From contig VBKF01000123.1 in the NCBI GenBank assembly GCA_005888095.1, positions 1 through 52,016 of the forward strand: a DNA stretch of 52,016 bases, written 5' to 3'. This document shows, in pieces, positions 1 to 27,753 of this stretch. Numbering within the stretch: position 1 is the stretch's first letter; each line of letters begins with the position of its first letter. The position numbers and the translations under genes were made by a program. Source of the DNA: Deltaproteobacteria bacterium. Its GTDB lineage: Bacteria; Desulfobacterota; Binatia; DP-6. The notes under the pieces are model-generated. The model was given only the letters and a program-made list of their open reading frames with translations. It was not told where the DNA came from and did no database searches.

Positions 1-609
1 GTTGTCGTTGCAGTCCGGGCAGAGCGGGATCGAGCTCGACTGCTGCCCCGTCGAGGTGAGGTTGTTGTCGCACCGGGCGTCGTTCTGGGACGCCAGGTAG
101 CCGGTGACCTCCTCGATCTCGTTCGGCGTGCTGTCGGTGCTCCGCGCGAGGACCTTGACGTCGAACTCCAGGCTGCAGAAGCCGGGGGGAATCGTCTGGT
201 TGGCGGGGATCATGACCGGGCTGCTCGGCGTGAACACCACCTCGTTCGGGGTCGCGCTGGCCGCGTGGCCGGTCGTCCAGGTCACGCCGCAGGTGGTGGT
301 GATCGTCCCATCTCCCTCGTACTCGGCGATCATCCCCTCGTCGGTGCACGGGATGCCGAGGGTGAAGTTGCTGTCGCAGTCGAGGTCGAAGCGCAGCCGG
401 TTGACGTTGAGCTTGGTGCCGCCCTGGATGCTTCCCGTGCCGAGCGTCAGCTTGACCCGGACGACGTCACCCGGCAGCGCGAAGTCGGGTCCGGCCACGT
501 AGTCGATGGTGATCAGCCCGTTGCAGGTGTTGACGGCGTGCGCGACGCCGGGGGCGGCCGCGCTCACTGCGATCGCAAGGAGGCCAAGCAGCAGGATTCT
601 GACGCGCAT
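1..609 (-). CDS. Secreted Cys-rich repeat protein, copy A (3' end cut by window edge)
   Basis: The gene starts at ATG 609, behind GGGAGGA about 8 nt upstream, and stays open for 203 codons to the window edge, so the C-terminus is missing. Residues 1-25 form a clear signal peptide (hydrophobic LLLGLLAIAVSAAA, then AHA), so export is expected. The mature part begins with a beta-rich domain (FDLDCDSNFTLGIPC; Cys-containing, resembling cohesin-like or Ig-like adhesive modules, family not recognised). The visible end runs into CPDCNDN, where the Cys-rich repeats of the neighbouring copy begin. It is almost identical to the N-terminal half of the gene at 738-2619 and in this copy the frame is intact, which makes it the reference for the frameshift in copy B. 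Function unknown; a cell-surface or extracellular role is inferred. Confidence 0.75.
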   Translation of the reverse strand, partial: MRVRILLLGLLAIAVSAAAPGVAHAVNTCNGLITIDYVAGPDFALPGDVVRVKLTLGTGSIQGGTKLNVNRLRFDLDCDSNFTLGIPCTDEGMIAEYEGDGTITTTCGVTWTTGHAASATPNEVVFTPSSPVMIPANQTIPPGFCSLEFDVKVLARSTDSTPNEIEEVTGYLASQNDARCDNNLTSTGQQSSSIPLCPDCNDN

Positions 610-737
610 CGTCGTAGTCCTCCCGGGGGGGACGATGCTCCCTGGGTCGGCAGGACGTCAAGCGAAAAAAGGGCGAGCGCGGGCCGACGGAGCGATTTCG
701 CGCCGTACGCGAGGCCCTGCGCTCTATCGCGGGCTAC

Positions 738-1958
738 CTACTTGTAGAGGTCACGGACCACCCACCCGAACTTCGTCCGCGTCCAAGCGCCGCTGTGAAT
801 GCCCGGCGTCGGCCGGTTGCCGATGTAGAACTGCAGATCCATCAGAGGGTCGGTCGCTGCCGACATGTCGCCGTAGGCCTCGACCCGGTAGCCGTACGAG
901 GTGCCGTACGAGGTGATCCTGATCTCGGCCTTGTAGACGCCGCCCTCGGTGAGCGCCGCCGGGTTCGCGTACTTGAACCGCTTGTGGGCTGCGAATTGCT
1001 TGAACACGCCGGGAGGCAGAACGGCGCTGTAGATGCGCCCCCGCGCGTTGCTCAGCAGCCACCCGACCTCCGAGCCTGCCACGTTCACGGGTTCCGTGAT
1101 CGTCACGCGCCCGTGCGACGTGAACTGGTCGAGACCCGCCCCGGCCGGTCCGAACTTGATGGCCGTGGGGTCCTTCTGGATGATCGGGCAGCGGCACTCG
1201 CCGCCACCGTTGATACAGGCCGTCTGTTGCTTCGGCGTCGTGCAGGGGTGGTGGTCCTGCGTCCCACCTTCGCACCTGGACGGCCCGCAGGCGGGATCGG
1301 CGCAGTCGATGAGCCCGTTGCAGTCGTTGTCGATCATGTCGGCGCAACCCTCGGGCCCGGTCGGGACGCAGCCCTGGAGGGTGGTGGTGGTCGTGCTGGG
1401 GACCGTCGTGGTCGTCGTGGGGATGGTCGTCGTGGTGGTGACGCACAGGATGTGACTCTGGTCGCAGACGCCGTTGCCGTCGCAGCCGGCGGTCGTGCAG
1501 GCGTCGCTGTCGGTATCCGGGCAGGGCGTGCTGGCGGGCACGTTCGGGAAGTCGCAGCTCCCCGTCTGCGGGTTGCAGGTGGGCGGCCCGGTGCAGGGGT
1601 TGGCGTCGTCGGTGCAGGTCTTCACCATGTGGTTCTGGTCGCACCCCCCGTTGCCGTCGCAGCCGGCGGTCGTGCAGGCGTTGCTGTCGGTGTCCGGGCA
1701 GGGCGTGCTGTCGGGCACGTTCGGGAAGTCGCAGTTCCCCGTCTGCGGGTTGCAGGTGGGCGGCCCGGTGCAGGGATTGGTGTCGTCGGTGCAGGTCTTC
1801 ACCATGTGGTTCTGGTCGCAGCCGTCGGTCACGCTGCCCCCGGTGGCCAGCGTGCCGTTGCAGCCCGCCGTCGTGCAGGCGTTGTTGTCCGTGTCCGTGC
1901 ACGGCGTGCTGTCGGCCACCGGGGTGTGGCTGCACATCCCGGTGCTCTGGTCGCACAT
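738..1958 (-). CDS. C-terminal Cys-rich repeat and Thr-linker segment of copy B
   Basis: This is the open frame that remains for the C-terminal two thirds of copy B; ATG 1958 is internal and probably not a natural start. It contains two nearly perfect 59-residue repeats (NACTTAGCDGNG, DQNHMVKTCTDD, NPCTGPPTCNPQTG, PCPDTDS) and a more divergent third. A Thr/Pro/Val linker of three poly-Thr blocks follows, then a motif MIDNDCNGLIDCADPAC of the kind seen in MopE-like metal-binding motifs. A C-terminal domain of about 160 residues carries no name I can assign and ends DLYK. Acidic and Cys residues in DTD, DNDC and CADPAC suggest calcium or other metal binding; this is inferred from motif resemblance. 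Whether it is translated depends on the upstream frameshift being real. Confidence 0.5.
   Translation of the reverse strand: MCDQSTGMCSHTPVADSTPCTDTDNNACTTAGCNGTLATGGSVTDGCDQNHMVKTCTDDTNPCTGPPTCNPQTGNCDFPNVPDSTPCPDTDSNACTTAGCDGNGGCDQNHMVKTCTDDANPCTGPPTCNPQTGSCDFPNVPASTPCPDTDSDACTTAGCDGNGVCDQSHILCVTTTTTIPTTTTTVPSTTTTTLQGCVPTGPEGCADMIDNDCNGLIDCADPACGPSRCEGGTQDHHPCTTPKQQTACINGGGECRCPIIQKDPTAIKFGPAGAGLDQFTSHGRVTITEPVNVAGSEVGWLLSNARGRIYSAVLPPGVFKQFAAHKRFKYANPAALTEGGVYKAEIRITSYGTSYGYRVEAYGDMSAATDPLMDLQFYIGNRPTPGIHSGAWTRTKFGWVVRDLYK
1471..1824 (-). repeat. Two tandem 177-bp units encoding 59-residue Cys-rich repeats
   Basis: The block starting ccgttgccgt at 1471 recurs at 1648, a period of 177 bp or exactly 59 codons, with only scattered substitutions between units. 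A third, more diverged unit with an insertion follows to about 1960. The in-frame period means unit number can change without breaking the protein, a typical source of length variation in surface proteins. Confidence 0.8.
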
Positions 1959-1976
1959 GTCCTGGGAGCACTCGAT

Positions 1977-2594
1977 GTTGTCGTTGCAGTCCGGGCAGAG
2001 CGGGATCGAGCTCGACTGCTGCCCCGTCGAGGTGAGGTTGTTGTCGCACCGGGCGTCGTTCTGGGACGCCAGGTAGCCGGTGCGTGCCGTCGGTGCTCCG
2101 CGCGAGCACCTTGACGTCGAACTCGAGGGCGCAGAAGCCGGGGGGAATCGTCTGGCTGGCCGGGATCATGACCGGGCTGCTCGGGGTGAACACGACCTCG
2201 TTCGGCGTGTCGCTGACCCCGTGGCCGGTCGCCCAGGTCACGCCGCACGTGGTGGTGATCGTCGAGTCGCCCTCGTACTCGACCTTCATCCCCTCGTCGG
2301 TGCAGGGGATGCCGAGGGTGAAGTTGCTGTCGCAGTCGAGGTCGAAGCGCAGCCGGTTGACGTTGAGCTTGGTGCCGCCCTGGATGCTTCCCGTGCCGAG
2401 CGTCAGCTTGACGCGGACGACGTCACCCGGGAGCGCGAAATCGGGTCCGCCGACGTAGTCGATCGTGATCAGTCCGTTGCAGGTGTTGACGGCGTGCGCG
2501 ACGCGCGGAGCCGCCGCGCTGACGGCGATCGCGAGCAGGCCGAGCCGCAGGATCCTCGCCCCGGCGGCCGGGCCCGCATTTCCCGGCTTCGACG
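1977..2594. repeat. Second copy of tandem duplication; first copy begins at position 1
   Basis: Bases 1-106 are identical to 1977-2082. Beyond the 20-bp difference, 133-606 and about 2089-2562 stay closely similar with scattered changes up to the signal-peptide region. Copy A leaves the window at position 1, so its remaining repeats probably lie just outside. The regions upstream of each start differ, which places the duplication boundary near the 5' ends of the genes. Confidence 0.8.
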
Positions 2595-2889
2595 CCGAAG
2601 CCTTCCCGTGGACACACATCTCGGCACCCTCCTCGCAGGTATGGCGAACGGGACTACCCGTAGCATCGCCCGTTCCAGCGCCGACGGGCCTGCGGGGACG
2701 CGACCAGGCTGTGGTCGGCAGTCGATGTCAAGCACGAAAAGCCGACCAGGGGACGGCGCGAACGGTCAATGGGGACCGGGCGTTGGGGGACGGAGGAGGG
2801 GGCGCTGCAAGACGGTCACAAGACTGCCGAAATGCCTCGACCTGCAGCTCTGCGGGCTCCTCGTACTACCGGGCAACCCCCAAGAGCCC

Positions 2890-4743
2890 CTAGAAGTACC
2901 CCTCGGGCTCGTCCTTGCCCCGGGGCGCCTCGCCGCGGCTCGGGATGTACTTCCCGGTGATCATGTCCTTGTAGCCCATGCCGGGAGCCACCATCGGGTA
3001 GACGTGCGCGGTCTGGTCTACCATCACCTCGAGGAAGGCGGGTCCGGGGAAGCTGACGAACTCCTCGAGCGCCGGACGGACGTCCGGGATCGCGGTGACC
3101 CGCCGGGCGAACCCGAAGCCATCGGCCTCGACCGCCTTCACGAAGTCTTTCTTGTGGAGGGTCTTGTCCGAACCCGAGTAGCGGTTCGAGTAGAAGAGGT
3201 CCTGCCACTGACGAACCATGCCGTCGCCCAGGTTGTTGAGCAGCAGCACCTTCACGGGGATGTCGTAGTTGGTGAGCGTCTCGAGCTCGCCGAGGTTCAT
3301 GCGGATCGAGCCGTCGCCATCGACATCGATCACGAGCTTGCCGGGGTTGGCGAGCTGGGCGCCGATCGCGGCGGGGAGCCCGAAGCCCATCGTCCCCATG
3401 CTGCCCGAGGTGAGGAAGCTCCGCGGCGCGTGGAAGTCGAGGTACTGCGCGGCCCACATCTGATGTTGGCCGACGCCCGTCGACACGATCGCGTTGGCCC
3501 GGGTGATCTGGTTGAGGGTCGAGAGCACGTACTCGACCTGGATCAGGCTCGAGCCGCGGTTGTAGTTGAGGGGGTGACGGAGGCGGAGCTCCGCCACGTG
3601 CGCGCGCCAGCGGCTGAAGTCCTTCTTGAAGCCCGCCCCCGCCTCGAGGAGCTGGTGGAGGCCGCGCCTGGCGTCCGAGACGTGGGCCCAATCGACGTGC
3701 TTCACCTTCTCGATCTCGGACGCGTCGATGTCGAGGTGCGCGATCCTGGCGTGCGGGGCGAACTCCTTCACCTTGCCGGCCACGCGATCGTCGAAGCGCG
3801 AGCCGACGGCGAAGAGGAAGTCGCAGTCCTCGACCGCATAGTTGGCGTACGCGGTGCCGTGCATGCCGAGCATGTGCAGCGAGAGCTCGCTCGTCGTGTC
3901 CATCGCACCGATCCCCATGAGCGTGGTCACGACGGGGATGCCGAAGCGCTTGGCGAAGGCCCGCAGCTCGGACCCCGCGTTGCCGTTGATGACGCCGCCG
4001 CCGGCATAGATGAGCGGCCGGTCCGAGGCGCCGAGCAGGCGGAAGAAGGCGTCGGCGTCCGGCGACGAGATCGTGGCGCGCTCGAGCGCCTCCAGCCGGT
4101 CCTGGTAGCCGCGCATGTGGAGGAGTCCCGCGCCGCGGAAGGTCCCCTTGGCGAGCTGCACGTCGCGCGGGATGTCCACGACGACGGGTCCCGGCCGACC
4201 GCTGCGCGCGATGTGGAACGCCGTGCGGAGGGTCTGCTCGACCTTCGTCTCGTCGGTGACCAGGAAGACGTGCTTCGCGCAGGCCGCCATGATGTTGAAG
4301 ACGGGTGCCTCCTGGAACGCGTCGGTGCCCATCGCGACGCGCGGCACCTGCCCGCAGATGAGCACGATCGGCACGGAGTCGGCCTGGCAGTCGCGGACGG
4401 GTGTCACGGAGTTGGTCGCGCCGGGACCCGAGGTGACGAGGGAGACGCCCACCCGGCCGCTCGAGCGCGCGTAGCCCGCGGCCATGAACCCCGCGCCCTG
4501 CTCCGTGGCCGGCACGATCAGCCGGATCTCGTCCTTGCCGGCGCGGCCCTCGTTGTAGCGGAAGACGGCGTCGTAGGTCGGCAGGATGGCGCCGCCGCTG
4601 TAGCCGAAGATCGTGTCGACGCCCTCGTCGGCCAGCACCTGCACGATCATGTCGGCGCCGTTCATGACGGCCCCGGCGAGCGGGTGAGGCGCGGCGGCTG
4701 CACCGGCGACGGTGGCGCGCGGCGGCTTCATGGCGATCGACAT
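2890..4743 (-). CDS. ilvB: Acetolactate synthase, large (catalytic) subunit
   Basis: A ThDP-dependent enzyme that condenses two pyruvates, or pyruvate with 2-oxobutyrate, as the first committed step of branched-chain amino-acid synthesis; cytoplasmic. ATG 4743 is chosen because AAGGAG sits 6 nt upstream, and an upstream extension in frame looks non-coding. The 617-residue length is usual for the family. Seen in order: N-terminal PYR domain with FGYSGGAILPTYD and the ThDP-activating Glu in ATEQGAGF; a central FAD-type domain; and a C-terminal PP domain with the ThDP motif DVDGDGSIRMN ending in LLLNN, followed by GMVRQWQ, typical of biosynthetic IlvB. The regulatory subunit ilvN and the reductase ilvC are not adjacent. 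It is divergent from the VOC gene with a 65-bp gap. Confidence 0.93.
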   Translation of the reverse strand: MSIAMKPPRATVAGAAAAPHPLAGAVMNGADMIVQVLADEGVDTIFGYSGGAILPTYDAVFRYNEGRAGKDEIRLIVPATEQGAGFMAAGYARSSGRVGVSLVTSGPGATNSVTPVRDCQADSVPIVLICGQVPRVAMGTDAFQEAPVFNIMAACAKHVFLVTDETKVEQTLRTAFHIARSGRPGPVVVDIPRDVQLAKGTFRGAGLLHMRGYQDRLEALERATISSPDADAFFRLLGASDRPLIYAGGGVINGNAGSELRAFAKRFGIPVVTTLMGIGAMDTTSELSLHMLGMHGTAYANYAVEDCDFLFAVGSRFDDRVAGKVKEFAPHARIAHLDIDASEIEKVKHVDWAHVSDARRGLHQLLEAGAGFKKDFSRWRAHVAELRLRHPLNYNRGSSLIQVEYVLSTLNQITRANAIVSTGVGQHQMWAAQYLDFHAPRSFLTSGSMGTMGFGLPAAIGAQLANPGKLVIDVDGDGSIRMNLGELETLTNYDIPVKVLLLNNLGDGMVRQWQDLFYSNRYSGSDKTLHKKDFVKAVEADGFGFARRVTAIPDVRPALEEFVSFPGPAFLEVMVDQTAHVYPMVAPGMGYKDMITGKYIPSRGEAPRGKDEPEGYF

Positions 4744-20346: not shown

Positions 20347-21099
20347 ATGCTGATTCTTGCGGTGTTCGTGGGACATTGGGTTCTCGCTGCCTTCTTCCAG
20401 TCGAGCTTCCATCATCGCTACGCCTCCCACCGCATGTTCACCATGAGCCGGCGGACAGAGCGGATGTTTCACGTCCTCACCTACGTCGTACAGGGTTCGT
20501 CGTACCTCTCGCCGCGGGCGTACGCGATCCTCCACCGCGAGCACCACGCCTACAGCGACACCGCGCGCGACCCGCACGCTCCCGGCTTCTTCTCGAACGT
20601 GCTCACGATGATGTGGGCCACGGCGGAACGCTACGCCGCGCACGTCACGCGCAGGTCGTCGCCCGAGGCGCGCTTCCTCGGCGGATATCCCGACTGGCCG
20701 GGGCTCGACCGCCTCGGCTCATCGTGGGGCGGCCGCATCGCCTGGGGCACAGTGTACGGCGTCCTCTACCTCTGGCTCGCCACGGCGTGGTGGCAGTTCC
20801 TCCTCCTGCCGATTCACTGGCTCATGGGCCCGGTGCACGGCGCCATCGTGAACTGGTGCGGCCACCGCTACGGCTATCGGAACTTCGGGACCTCGGACGC
20901 GTCGCGCAATTCGCTTCCTGTCGACCTGGTGATGCTCGGCGAGCTCTTCCAGAACAACCATCACCACGCCGCCGGCCGGCCCGATTTCGCGTCCCGGCGT
21001 TTCGAGTGGGACCCGACCCACGCCGTGCTCCGACTCCTGGCCCGTATGCGCGTCATCCAGTGGCGGGCCGACGTTCCCGCGCTTTCCGCCGCGGCTTAA
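20347..21099 (+). CDS. Membrane fatty-acid (acyl-CoA/acyl-lipid) desaturase
   Basis: 250 residues with hydrophobic segments at about 1-18 and 135-165 and three histidine clusters that hold the di-iron centre: HHRYASHR near residue 22, HREHHAYSD near 72 and QNNHHHAA near 205. The pattern fits the delta-9-type desaturase family, which introduces a double bond into acyl chains in the inner membrane. ATG 20347 follows a GGGGGGGAG ribosome site. The 40-bp gap to the RRM gene suggests co-transcription. It ends one base from the convergent aminotransferase gene. The regiospecificity cannot be read. Confidence 0.88.
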   Translation: MLILAVFVGHWVLAAFFQSSFHHRYASHRMFTMSRRTERMFHVLTYVVQGSSYLSPRAYAILHREHHAYSDTARDPHAPGFFSNVLTMMWATAERYAAHVTRRSSPEARFLGGYPDWPGLDRLGSSWGGRIAWGTVYGVLYLWLATAWWQFLLLPIHWLMGPVHGAIVNWCGHRYGYRNFGTSDASRNSLPVDLVMLGELFQNNHHHAAGRPDFASRRFEWDPTHAVLRLLARMRVIQWRADVPALSAAA

Positions 21100-23522: not shown

Positions 23523-24923
23523 TCATGCCCGCTCGAGGTACCGCCGCCGTTCCCACGACGTCACCGTCTCGTCGAACTTCCGCTGCTCGGTGCGCGCGAA
23601 GTGGACGAGGTGCTCGACCACCTCGGCGCCGAAGGCCTCGCGGAAGAGCGCCGAGCGCTCGAACTCCGCGGTCGCCTCCGGCAGCGAGCGGGGCACCTGC
23701 GGCAGGCCCTCGGCCTTGTAGACGTCGCCCGTGAACATCGGCGGCGGCTCGAGGCGGCGCGCCAGCCCGTCGAGGCCGGCCGCGAGGGTGGCGGCGAAGA
23801 CGAGGTAGGGATTGGCGTCCGCACCCGGGATGCGACACTCGACCCGCAGCGAGCGGCCGTGGCCGACGACGCGGAAGCCCGCGGTGCGGTTGTCGTACGA
23901 CCAGGCGATCCCGGTCGGCGCGAACGACCCCGCCTGGTAGCGCTTGTAGGAGTTGACGTACGGCGCGAAGAGCAGCGTCGACGCCCGCGCGTGGGCCATG
24001 AGCCCGCCGAGCCACCAGCGAAACTTGTCCGAGACGCGCGCGCGCGCGCCGGGGATCGGACCCTCGCCCTCGAACAGCGGCGTCGTGCCGTCGGGCGACC
24101 AGAGGCTCGAGTGGACGTGCATGGAGCTCCCCGCCCAGCGCTCGTCGAGCTTCGCCATGAAGGTGAGCGCCAGGTTCTGCTGATCGGCGATCTCCTTGGC
24201 CGCCTGCTTGTAGAGGACGTGGCGGTCGGCCATCTCGAGCGCGTCGGCGTAGCGGACGTTGATCTCGTGCTGGCCAGGACCCCACTCGCCCTTGGAGAAC
24301 TCGATCGGCACGCCCGAGGCCTCGAGGTGATGGCGGATGGCACCCACCAGCGGCTCTATCTTCCGGCCCTGCATCGTATGGTAGTCCTCGAGGTACCAGC
24401 CGAAGGGCTCGAGGTCGTGGAAGTGCTTGCGCTCGGCGCCGGCGTAGGAGTCGCGCAGCACGAAGAACTCGAGCTCCGAGGCGGTCATGACGCGCACGCC
24501 CGCGGCGGCCGCGCGCTCGACCTGCCGCTTGAGGATGGTGCGCGGCGCCACCGCCACGAGCGCGTCGCGTTCCTCCTCGACGACGTCGCACAGGACGATC
24601 GCCGTGTGCTCGAGCCAGGTCGCGCGGCGGAGCGTCGAGAGGTCCGGCACGCAGCGCACGTCGCCGTAGCCCTTCTCCCACGAGGCGAAGCGATAGCCGG
24701 GGACGGGATCCATCTCCATGTCGCAGGCGAGGAGGTAGTTGCAGGCGTGCATCCCAATGCCCAGCACCTCGTCGCAGAAGTAGCGACCGACGATGCGCTT
24801 CCCGACGAGGCGGCCATAGAGGTCGGGAAAGACGGTGAGCACCGTGTCGACGTCGCCCTGCGCGACGAGGTCGCGCAGCTGGTCGGGGGTCAGGATCGGG
24901 CTCCGGCGGAGCATGGCGGCCAT
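23523..24923 (-). CDS. Glutamine-synthetase-family enzyme (possible gamma-glutamylpolyamine ligase)
   Basis: 466 residues. N-terminal beta-grasp region, then the catalytic barrel: ASELEFFVLRDSYAG and KGEWGPGQHEINVRY (metal-binding Glu residues), MHVHSSLWSPDG (active-site His-x-His), YQAGSFAPTGIAWSYDNRTA and RVECRIPGADANPYL (ATP and glutamate contacts). The absent adenylylation loop and the GQHEINVRY variant match the PuuA-like/GlnA3-type group better than classical GlnA, so a gamma-glutamyl ligase for amines is as likely as ammonia assimilation. ATG 24923 is the probable start; ATG 24914 is an alternative, and neither has a good ribosome site. The SDR directly downstream could act in the same amine or alcohol pathway. 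Confidence 0.88.
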   Translation of the reverse strand: MAAMLRRSPILTPDQLRDLVAQGDVDTVLTVFPDLYGRLVGKRIVGRYFCDEVLGIGMHACNYLLACDMEMDPVPGYRFASWEKGYGDVRCVPDLSTLRRATWLEHTAIVLCDVVEEERDALVAVAPRTILKRQVERAAAAGVRVMTASELEFFVLRDSYAGAERKHFHDLEPFGWYLEDYHTMQGRKIEPLVGAIRHHLEASGVPIEFSKGEWGPGQHEINVRYADALEMADRHVLYKQAAKEIADQQNLALTFMAKLDERWAGSSMHVHSSLWSPDGTTPLFEGEGPIPGARARVSDKFRWWLGGLMAHARASTLLFAPYVNSYKRYQAGSFAPTGIAWSYDNRTAGFRVVGHGRSLRVECRIPGADANPYLVFAATLAAGLDGLARRLEPPPMFTGDVYKAEGLPQVPRSLPEATAEFERSALFREAFGAEVVEHLVHFARTEQRKFDETVTSWERRRYLERA

Positions 24924-25037
24924 CGGGGGCCGATGTAGCACGGAGGGCAGGCGCACGCCACGTTCGAGGGCCCGACGGCTTGACACGGGCCAGTCGTCGA
25001 GCAGATCTCTTGATCGCTGACTTCGCTCCTGCTCGCC

Positions 25038-25337
25038 GTGACCATCGTCGCCGCGGTGTGCTCCGTTGCGATACGCCGCTGGCGCCGGATGCGCCTCCGA
25101 CGGGCGGCGGCCACGCGTGCCGGCTCGTCGCCCGAGCGCGCGATCACCATCCGCTCGTACGCCGAGATGGACGAGCATCTCGTCCGGCGCTGGTGCGCGT
25201 GCGGCGGCTACCTCGAGCGGAGCGGCGAAGGCACGCGCGAGACCGACGGCCGTCGGTTCCGGGTGGCGCGGCTCCGCTGTCAGGAATGCGAGGCGGTCGA
25301 CGAAGTCTTCTTCGACACGACCGAGCTGCTGCACTGA
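25038..25337 (+). CDS. Small zinc-ribbon-like protein with N-terminal membrane segment
   Basis: 99 residues from GTG 25038. A short hydrophobic stretch (MTIVAAVCSVAI, preceded in frame by SLLLAV) is followed by Arg-rich residues, as in a single-span membrane protein with a cytoplasmic domain. The C-terminal part has WCACGG and LRCQECEAVDEVFF, a CxC/CxxC zinc-ribbon-like pair spaced by about 28 residues. No family name is known to me. The start is uncertain: CTG 25017 would complete the hydrophobic helix, and no ribosome site is visible. It is divergent from the glutamine-synthetase-family gene and lies just upstream of the split lipid-methylase module. Confidence 0.6.
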   Translation: MTIVAAVCSVAIRRWRRMRLRRAAATRAGSSPERAITIRSYAEMDEHLVRRWCACGGYLERSGEGTRETDGRRFRVARLRCQECEAVDEVFFDTTELLH

Positions 25338-25402: not shown

Positions 25403-25732
25403 ATGGGCACGATCGCCGCCCGAGCGGCCGGCGTCCTCAGGCGGGTGTTCGCGCCGCTCGACGTGCCGATCACGTTCCGCCTCTGGGACGGCACGACGGC
25501 GCGCGTCGGGCAGGGAGACGGCGGCTTCACCGTCGTCCTTCACTCCCGCCGCATCTTCTGGCGCCTGATGCTGCGACCGACGTCGCGCCGTTTCGGCGAG
25601 GCGTTCATCGCCGGCGAGGCGGACATCGAGGGCGACATCTTCTCGGTCGCGGCCGCAGCCAACCGGCTCGAGGCGCTCCGGCTGCCGCTCGGTACGCGGC
25701 TCGCGCTGCTCGCGTCACTGATCCTCCCATGA
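25403..25732 (+). CDS. Detached N-terminal domain of cyclopropane-fatty-acid synthase
   Basis: 109 residues that match the SCP2-like N-terminal domain normally fused in front of the CFA-synthase methyltransferase: VPITFRLWDGTTARVG, FTVVLHSRRIFWRLML, RFGEAFIAGEADIEGDIFSV. In full-length enzymes this domain binds the membrane and lipid. Here it stops at 25732 instead of running into the catalytic domain. Its TGA overlaps the next gene's ATG (ATGA), so translation is coupled. There is no Shine-Dalgarno; TAGAGA begins 12 nt before ATG 25403, so the message may be leaderless. Together with 26824-27753 it would add up to a normal CFA synthase length. Confidence 0.75.
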   Translation: MGTIAARAAGVLRRVFAPLDVPITFRLWDGTTARVGQGDGGFTVVLHSRRIFWRLMLRPTSRRFGEAFIAGEADIEGDIFSVAAAANRLEALRLPLGTRLALLASLILP

Positions 25733-26820
25733 CGACGCACGACGTCCTCGTGGTCGGCGGTGGGCCGGGCGGCAGCACCGTCGCCTGGCGGCTCGCGCGC
25801 GCGGGGCTCCGGGTGCTCGTCCTCGACGCCGCCACCTTTCCGCGCGTCAAGCTCTGCGCCGGCTGGGTGACGCGGCGGGCGCTCGCCGATCTCGAGCTCG
25901 CGCCCGACGCCTATCCGCGCACGATCCAGCCCTTCGCCTCGGTCACCATCGCGGTCGACGGTCGCGAGCACGAGACCCGCTGGGACGAGCCGGTGAGCTA
26001 CGGGATCGTGCGTGCGGAGTTCGACACGTTCCTGCTCCGTCGAGCCGCTGGTGCGGGCGCGGAGGTGCGCGAGGGCGTCCGCGTGCGCGCGGTGCACGAG
26101 GCGGGCGCGGCCGTCATGGTCGAGGCCGGCGCGGAGCGGTTCACGGCGCCGCTCGTGGTCGGCGCGGGCGGCCACGGCTGCCCGGTGGCTCGCGCGCTCG
26201 GCGACGTCGACGCCGCAGCGCAGGTCGTCGTCACGCAGGAGAGCGAGACGCGAATCGGCGCCGAGCGGCTGCGCGAGCTGACGGCGCGTCACGGCACGCC
26301 CGAGCTCATCGCCGAGCCCGACTTCCGCGGCTACGGGTGGTACTTCACCAAGGGCGACTTCCTGAACGTCGGCGTCGGCGCGCTCGGCGGCCTCGCGATC
26401 CGCGAGCGACTCGCCCGCCTCCTTGCCCGGCTGCGCGGCGACGGGCGGCTGCCGCCCGACCTGGCGCTCACGCCCTTTCGCGGGCACGCGTATCGCGTGC
26501 GCCGCGGCCTCCCTCGCCGGCTCGCTGGCGAGCGGTTCGTGCTCGTGGGCGACGCCGCCGGCCTCGCCCGCGACGTCTCGGGCGAAGGCATCGGCCCCGC
26601 CGTCCGGAGCGGGCTCCTCGCCGCCGAGACGATCCTCGACGGCCGGCCCGCGAGCTACGCGGAGCGTGTGGCCGGGACTTTCGGCCGTCCGGAGCACGGG
26701 CTCGCGCGCCTGACGCGGCACCTTCCTGAGTCCATCATCGTCGCCTTCGCGCGGCTCGCCTGTACGCGCCCCGGGCTCCGCCGCCGTCTCGTCCTCGAGG
26801 GCGCCTTCGGGATGGGGTGA
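25729..26820 (+). CDS. Geranylgeranyl-reductase-type FAD oxidoreductase
   Basis: 363 residues. FAD site DVLVVGGGPGGSTVAWRLARAG, then LCAGWVTRRAL (the C-x-G region typical of the geranylgeranyl-reductase family), PLVVGAGGHGCPVAR, the substrate-lid sequence GYGWYFTKGDFLNVGVG, and second FAD contact VLVGDAAGLARDVSGEGIGPA. Family members saturate isoprenoid double bonds in (bacterio)chlorophyll or archaeal lipids, or act as monooxygenase-like halogenation enzymes. It lies between the two halves of a CFA synthase with a 4-bp overlap on one side and 3 bp on the other. An action on the same lipid substrate as that enzyme is therefore likely, as an inference from context. Confidence 0.88.
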   Translation: MTTHDVLVVGGGPGGSTVAWRLARAGLRVLVLDAATFPRVKLCAGWVTRRALADLELAPDAYPRTIQPFASVTIAVDGREHETRWDEPVSYGIVRAEFDTFLLRRAAGAGAEVREGVRVRAVHEAGAAVMVEAGAERFTAPLVVGAGGHGCPVARALGDVDAAAQVVVTQESETRIGAERLRELTARHGTPELIAEPDFRGYGWYFTKGDFLNVGVGALGGLAIRERLARLLARLRGDGRLPPDLALTPFRGHAYRVRRGLPRRLAGERFVLVGDAAGLARDVSGEGIGPAVRSGLLAAETILDGRPASYAERVAGTFGRPEHGLARLTRHLPESIIVAFARLACTRPGLRRRLVLEGAFGMG

Positions 26821-26823
26821 GCC

Positions 26824-27753
26824 ATGCGACGCTGGAGGACCAAACGCTCGGACCGCCGCGCCATCAGCTTCCACTACGACGTCTCGAACGACTTCTACGC
26901 GCTCTTCCTCGATAAGCGGATGGTCTACACGTGCGCCTACTACCGCCGACCCGACGGCGACCTCGACCAGGCGCAGGAGGACAAGCTCGACCTCGTGTGC
27001 CGCAAGCTGCGCCTCGCGCCGGGCGAGCGCCTCCTCGACATCGGCTGCGGCTGGGGGAGCCTCGTCATGTGGGCCGCCGAGCGCTACGGCGTCGAGGCGC
27101 ACGGCGTCACGCTCTCGGCCGCGCAGGCCGAGTGGGCCGGGAGCGCGATCCGTCGCGCGGGCCTCGAGGGCCGAGCGCGCGTCGAGCACCTCGACTACCG
27201 GGACCTCCCGGCGGGGCTGCGCTTCGAGAAGATCGCCGCGGTCGGCGTCATCGAGCACATCGGCATCCGCAACTACCCCGCCTACTTCGCGCGCGTCCAC
27301 CGGCTGCTCCAGCCGGGCGGGCTCTTCCTGAACCATGGCATCACGCACGAGAAGCACTGGCGGCGGACCAGCCAGACCGAGTTCTTCGAGCGACACGTCT
27401 TCCCGAACGCCGAGCTCGACAACGTGAGCCACACGCTCGACGCGCTCGAGCAGGCGCGCTTCGAGATCCTCGACGTGGAGGCCCTCCGCGCCCACTACGC
27501 GCGCACGACGCGGCAGTGGGTCGAGCGCCTGCAGGCGAACGCCGAGCAGGCGCGGGCGCTCGTCGGCGAGCGCGTCTACCGGACCTGGCTCCTCTACCTC
27601 GCGGCCTCCGCGGTGTCGTTCATGCAGGGCTCGATCGGCCTCTACCAGATCGTGGCCACGCGGCCCGACCCGGCGGCTGCGACCGCGGTGCCCGCCACCC
27701 GCGAACCGATCTATGCGCGGGCGGAACAACCAGCCCTCGCGCGGGCCTCCTGA
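26824..27753 (+). CDS. CFA-synthase catalytic domain (SAM-dependent lipid methyltransferase)
   Basis: 309 residues starting almost directly at the catalytic domain: ISFHYDVSNDFYALFLDKRM, VYTCAYY, SAM site LLDIGCGWGSLVMWAAERYG, then GVTLSAAQ, KIAAVGVIEHIGIRNY and FLNHGIT. Cyclopropane synthases and mycolic-acid methyltransferases of this family add a methylene or methyl group to a double bond of membrane phospholipid acyl chains. The usual N-terminal domain is missing and is found two genes upstream. Starts 3 bp after the flavoprotein stop. The product could be cyclopropane, methyl-branched or otherwise modified acyl chains; which one cannot be read from sequence. Convergent with the TrmN6-like gene, 6-bp gap. 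Confidence 0.9.
   Translation: MRRWRTKRSDRRAISFHYDVSNDFYALFLDKRMVYTCAYYRRPDGDLDQAQEDKLDLVCRKLRLAPGERLLDIGCGWGSLVMWAAERYGVEAHGVTLSAAQAEWAGSAIRRAGLEGRARVEHLDYRDLPAGLRFEKIAAVGVIEHIGIRNYPAYFARVHRLLQPGGLFLNHGITHEKHWRRTSQTEFFERHVFPNAELDNVSHTLDALEQARFEILDVEALRAHYARTTRQWVERLQANAEQARALVGERVYRTWLLYLAASAVSFMQGSIGLYQIVATRPDPAAATAVPATREPIYARAEQPALARAS

Follow-up and report, generated by a model that had tools for sequence, protein, structure and literature searches.

We found that, in a 52,016-nucleotide stretch of DNA from a Deltaproteobacteria bacterium (contig VBKF01000123.1; hereafter the window), a cyclopropane-fatty-acid (CFA) synthase is encoded as two separate proteins, with the gene of a flavoprotein of the geranylgeranyl reductase (GGR) family lying between them. 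This split is found in at least two phyla as grouped here, and a rearranged form occurs in Gammaproteobacteria. We give a probability of roughly 60% to the reading that the module is a split and rearranged variant of the tmp kind of system, whose product would be membrane phospholipids with acyl chains methyl-branched near the middle (10-methyl type); tmpBA is the ten-methyl-palmitate operon described by Blitzblau et al. 2021 (PMC7791843).

All three genes lie on the forward strand. The first open reading frame (25403 to 25732, 109 aa) starts with an ATG at 25403, ends with a TGA at 25730-25732, and encodes a detached SCP2-like N-domain of CFA synthase. The second (25729 to 26820, 363 aa) encodes the FAD flavoprotein. 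Its ATG at 25729 overlaps the preceding stop codon in the motif ATGA (25729 to 25732), and its TGA at 26818-26820 is followed by 3 bases and then the ATG of the third frame at 26824. The third (26824 to 27753, 309 aa, stop at 27751-27753) encodes a CFA-synthase-type SAM methyltransferase catalytic domain (CMAS) without an N-domain. Of the 393 positions of the CfaB cyclopropane synthase model, 5-80 are matched by ORF 1 and 98-393 by ORF 3, so the two together cover one CFA synthase. The first-pass annotation had described a split CFA synthase with an ATGA overlap and a 3-bp gap, and the coordinates and couplings are borne out by the sequence. Two further points of that annotation held: the N-domain is detached (ORF 1 exceeds the cut-off for DUF7884 and falls in the N-terminal part of the CfaB model), and the interposed flavoprotein is of GGR type (the frame between N-domain and CMAS exceeds the cut-off for TIGR02032).

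The N-domain protein matched the Pfam family DUF7884 with 35.4 bits (cut-off 27) and the CfaB model with 24.1 bits (E 1.4e-5), which is under that model's own cut-off. A Foldseek search with its predicted fold (pLDDT 81.6) found nothing at E <= 0.001 (the best hit had E 7.8e-3), and its sequence gave no match to solved structures at E <= 10. On realignment of the fold, the best matches were the N-domains of the CFA synthases 7qos (Z 8.0, 81 residues, 3.6 A) and 5z9o (Z 7.3), with SCP2 proteins narrowly behind (Z up to 7.0).

The methyltransferase matched the Pfam family CMAS (PF02353) with 312.4 bits (cut-off 27), and its alignment with the Aquifex CFA synthase 7qos (400 residues) spans residues 106-376 of the latter. 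Cys37, Glu144, His171, and Tyr225, which we take to be active-site residues, are all present. The protein shares 55.9% identity with a CFA synthase encoded on an Acidovorax plasmid and 32-40% with eight fused, TmpB-like proteins. Identity and its side of the tree (below) place it with the CfaB type, so that cyclopropane is the default guess for its product from sequence. It shares with CfaB-type cyclopropane synthases the coverage of both halves of the CfaB model and a CMAS domain with the Cys, Glu, His, and Tyr; however, those enzymes are one polypeptide, whereas here there are two, with the flavoprotein gene between. Across the split CMAS rows, the His was kept in 23 out of 25, being missing in L011 and L025. 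The CMAS of L011 (2434-3327) is much degenerated.

The flavoprotein matched the NCBIfam geranylgeranyl reductase family TIGR02032 with 174.9 bits (curated cut-off 158.8). Its matches in Pfam and NCBIfam were to families of the GGR and FAD_binding_3 types, and FAD motifs are present. The top Foldseek match of its predicted structure (pLDDT 82.9) was the geranylgeranyl-reductase-like 3oz2, with flavin halogenases close behind; the fold alone thus leaves the family unsettled, and the profile decides. It has in common with the GGR family (TIGR02032; 3oz2, 3atq) a profile score over the cut-off, the fold, and the FAD motifs, but differs by CAGW at the conserved Cys and by its linkage to CMAS. CAGW was found in every aligned row of the GGR clade defined below, while nine aligned GGR-type paralogues had CAGG, CGGG, or CGDG in its place and four other flavoproteins were without the motif. 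GGR-family proteins act on isoprenoid chains, and the family name favors a reading in which both enzymes act on one lipid that is not fatty acyl, such as a polyprenyl or other isoprenoid chain. We consider this quite unlikely, as the methyltransferase best matches CFA synthases and TmpB acts on fatty acids (PMC7791843). In one related GGR (L010:2-1012; the same gene in L026 and G004), a stretch of about 60 residues occurs twice in tandem, which is either a real duplication or an assembly fault.

The gene order is conserved well outside the window. The first-pass annotation had named a search of related genomes as a check, and the outcome supports it: N-domain, GGR, and CMAS were complete in this order in 12 of 16 related loci (L001-L009, L012, L015, and L016), with the labels Binatia, Deltaproteobacteria, Nitrospinota, or Tectomicrobia. 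Three of the 16 (L010, L013, and L014) are cut by contig ends, and the gammaproteobacterial L011 has the order N-domain, CMAS, GGR. These counts include L001 and L010, which are apparently the same genomes as G003 and G004, respectively, and several near-identical Nitrospinota loci. A close GGR was found in five of the seven genomes of the window's family, its own included (G001 and G002 are without), and in 15 of the 18 belonging to a second phylum, that of G306, which comprises Nitrospinota- and Tectomicrobia-labelled genomes. Fourteen of these 15 show N-domain, GGR, and CMAS (the CMAS of L057 being cut), and L071 is cut at the N side; the other three genomes gave no CMAS at E <= 1e-12. The order, recurring in two phyla, is not unique to this contig, and we reject chance adjacency or an artefact because of its conservation across the related loci and the second phylum.

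The coupling of N-domain and GGR is also maintained. A 4-nt overlap of N-domain and GGR (ATGA or GTGA) was present in 21 of 22 split loci, the exception being L070; this number includes L057, which has ATGA in context despite a nearer in-frame GTG (automatic count 20). The spacing between GGR and CMAS ranged from -4 to 45 nt. Compared with the Nitrospinota and Tectomicrobia flanks, the window had only the three module genes, with frames overlapping them, in common (comparison of ORFs from 70 aa upward, covering window 15000-36000 and locus flanks of up to 6 kb, E <= 1e-12). A CFA synthase broken by an insertion, and hence an artefact or a decaying gene, would fit the loss of the active-site His in L011 and L025, but has virtually no chance of being correct, since the same split with open frames occurs in many genomes and the active-site residues are kept in 23 out of 25 split rows. 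We regard it as refuted by the conservation of the split.

The window's own genome (5.46 Mb, listed as 100% complete) contains five CMAS matches at E <= 0.001, of which only that of the module is over the cut-off, and one DUF7884 match, also in the module. The genome thus holds no intact fused CFA synthase, which the first-pass annotation had listed among its refuting conditions; an intact fused CFA-type methyltransferase is, however, present elsewhere in the genome of one relative that carries the split module, G006. The other GGR-like proteins of the own genome are more distant (best E 9e-20). A fatty-acid desaturase at 20347-21099 (PF00487, 50.9 bits) had been linked to the module as a possible source of the double bond. 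It is the weakest of three desaturases in the genome and, among the loci compared, is close to the module only in L001. The link is therefore weak, and we reject this desaturase as a fixed part of the module. Just upstream of the module, on the forward strand, a 99-aa ORF (25038-25337) contains a Cys-x-Cys and Cys-x2-Cys pair; it is 91% identical in L001 only and has no Pfam match. On the reverse strand, an ORF at 23523-25334 resembles, judged by eye, a glutamine-synthetase-type protein.

We then searched with the GGR alone (E <= 1e-40). Matches were found in 17 out of 297 genomes of the window's phylum, with CMAS adjoining in 15 of the 17. By gene order, called with N-domain, CMAS, and GGR profiles built from the same loci they annotate, two of the 17 were split, eight had a fused N-CMAS before the GGR, five (L052-L056) had CMAS before the GGR, and two (L043 and L044) were without an adjoining CMAS. 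Among Gammaproteobacteria, 34 out of 369 genomes had matches, and 30 of these 34 loci were examined. CMAS was present in 28 of the 30: 24 were fused, three were split in the order N-domain, CMAS, GGR, and L092 was cut but had CMAS; in L088 and L099 no CMAS was in view. A plasmid search with the GGR gave no match at E <= 1e-8. The genomes of L043 and L044 (G037 and G074) carry a GGR of the CMAS-linked clade, yet gave no CMAS at E <= 1e-12; in them, the GGR may have another partner or another use. In L052-L056, the CMAS frames extend upstream of the domain by 106 to 145 residues, counted to the farthest start codon. These methyltransferases probably carry a fused N-domain of the E. coli type; the N profile is blind to their N-terminal part and gave no match for Enterobacter Cfa either. 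With a GGR of the same clade immediately following a methyltransferase of the E. coli Cfa lineage, these loci form a third pairing in the window's phylum.

Phylogenetic trees were constructed for both proteins. In the GGR tree (74 rows), the CMAS-linked GGRs together with those of L043, L044, L088, and L099 form one clade (86/94) apart from other paralogues; the bootstrap of 86 is below the mark of 95, a long-branch warning applies, and the outgroup is narrow, as the 16 GGRs without adjoining CMAS are mostly paralogues from the window's family. The split loci of both gene orders, with 16 A-type split loci among the rows, cluster together (97/93). In the CMAS tree (75 rows, after leaving out cut loci, the incomplete CMAS of L057, and duplicates from some genomes), the split-locus methyltransferases form one clade (100/97) within the CfaB-type lineage, the fused ones form another (99/91), and those of L052-L056 join Enterobacter Cfa (100/100). 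A single clade of split and fused methyltransferases was rejected with p-AU 1.3e-4 (63 rows; 12 of the 75 dropped, L011 included) and 3.7e-5 (70 rows; 13 dropped and eight added), both tests using quick trees and groups named by gene order. A simple shuffling of the tmpBA operon as the whole story is thus rejected, because the methyltransferases of split loci are not of the same lineage as the fused ones. In L101, a fused TmpB-like methyltransferase is joined to a GGR of the L052-L056 type. We infer that members of the reductase family have at some point switched to other methyltransferases. The methyltransferases of L132 (G006), L134 (G560), and L135 (G445) fall inside the fused clade with no GGR within the flanks examined, and the same three genomes carry a split locus apart from it. 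The split CMAS is therefore not the sole candidate partner of the GGR there, and two methyltransferases could serve one GGR.

These results bear on whether the two activities concern the same lipid. An ordinary cyclopropane synthase could be formed by N-domain and CMAS, with the flavoprotein merely co-regulated and saturating a different lipid (an isoprenoid or quinone side chain, for example). In line with this are the descent of the CMAS from the CfaB type, a flavoprotein family named for isoprenoid reduction, and the clade GGRs without CMAS in G037 and G074. However, the same GGR clade stands beside three unlike CFA-synthase lineages, which is hard to explain if the substrates are unrelated, and the N/GGR overlap is fixed; we regard this alternative as unlikely.

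A methylate-then-reduce scheme with a GGR-like partner is already known from tmpBA. TmpB is described as a CFA-type methyltransferase with phospholipid-binding and SAM domains in one protein, and TmpA as a putative reductase similar to archaeal geranylgeranyl reductases (PMC7791843). Four out of five tmp operons gave 10-methylenepalmitate in E. coli and none gave 10-methylpalmitate; TmpA showed no activity in either E. coli or yeast, with oxygen sensitivity or a missing electron carrier as possible causes (PMC7791843). The first-pass annotation had proposed SAM methylation followed by hydride reduction. This chemistry has a published precedent in tmpBA, but the claimed novelty of a GGR-type flavoprotein in this role is not supported, TmpA itself being GGR-like. 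The window shares with tmpBA a CFA-type SAM methyltransferase coupled with a GGR-like flavoprotein. Unlike the single protein TmpB, the methyltransferase here is divided into two proteins whose genes flank that of the reductase, and the order is N-domain, GGR, CMAS instead of methyltransferase then flavoprotein; the three gammaproteobacterial split loci, unlike the window, have the GGR last, as in tmpBA. The CFA-synthase lineage of the window CMAS also differs from that of the fused loci, whose identification with tmpBA is by matching gene order and families, not by the published sequences. The same paper describes, after Machida et al., bfaAB as the tuberculostearic acid operon of actinomycetes, states that BfaA has no meaningful homology to TmpA, and supposes independent origins for bfa and tmp (PMC7791843). 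The logic of methylation followed by flavoprotein reduction is shared with bfaAB, but the window flavoprotein is of the GGR / FAD_binding_3 type and not a BfaA-type FAD-binding oxidoreductase. No paper on the split form was found by title or abstract, in a search that most subscription papers lay outside, and nothing relevant beyond PMC7791843 was found on the CMAS-GGR pairing or on lipids of these groups. What is new here is the split with an interposed reductase, how widely it occurs, the constancy of the N/GGR overlap, and a methyltransferase from a different lineage.

In the tmp-like reading that we prefer, the SCP2-like N-domain would present a phospholipid-bound monounsaturated chain, and the reduced FAD flavoprotein would saturate a methylene double bond. 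The split may allow the N-domain to be synthesized alongside the reductase and possibly to serve it as well as the methyltransferase. A methylene product has been described for the analogous TmpB alone (PMC7791843); for the window CMAS it is a proposal, as are the reduction, the double use of the N-domain, and the three-part complex suggested in the first-pass annotation. Cyclopropanes are saturated at the site of methylation, whereas a partner reductase should require a double bond in the methylated chain, and this favors the methylene route. We also counted for methylation followed by reduction the conserved gene order, the sharing of the three genes alone with the Nitrospinota and Tectomicrobia flanks, the 10-methylenepalmitate made by TmpB in E. 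coli, and the GGR-only search, which lands beside CMAS in most matches. Against it we counted the CfaB-type ancestry of the CMAS, the inactivity of TmpA in the published hosts, the same-clade GGRs without CMAS in G037 and G074, the unlinked TmpB-lineage methyltransferases in G006, G445, and G560, and the active-site His missing in L011 and L025. A bolder version, which we hold only tentatively and consider doubtful, is that the module represents a separate class of methyl-branching machine: an SCP2-like subunit tied to the reductase by the 4-nt overlap would hand the same chain to the methyltransferase and then to the flavoprotein, the latter being the defining part, combined with at least three CFA-synthase lineages.

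10-methyl acids are lipid markers of actinomycetes and sulfate reducers. Producers in the Binatia-, Nitrospinota-, and Tectomicrobia-labelled groups, if real, would blur this use. In the tmpBA study, no activity was obtained for the step that would complete 10-methyl fatty acids by reduction outside actinomycetes (PMC7791843). Because the reductase family is kept next to three dissimilar lineages of methyltransferase, it stands out as the partner that stays the same, and its members here are further versions to try.

The flavoprotein could, alternatively, oxidize instead of reduce and thereby produce an unsaturated methyl-branched chain, as in the supposed first steps to furan fatty acids. There are FAD oxidoreductases next to CFA-type methyltransferases elsewhere, as on a Roseibium plasmid, but the window flavoprotein has the sequence of the reductase family TIGR02032, and this reading seems very improbable. 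Three plasmid loci were noted in addition. L110 (Roseibium sp. Sym1, 843-4329) has genes for an NAD(P)/FAD oxidoreductase, a CFA-synthase-type protein, and a transporter, with 4-nt overlaps. L103 (Mesorhizobium sp. INR15, 110-4382) has a type III polyketide synthase, a methyltransferase, an FAD monooxygenase, and a CFA-synthase-type protein in a row. In L112 (Variovorax paradoxus VAI-C, a betaproteobacterium, 2138-4712), the gene of a CFA-type methyltransferase overlaps that of an FAD-binding oxidoreductase, a pair that is possibly bfa-like.
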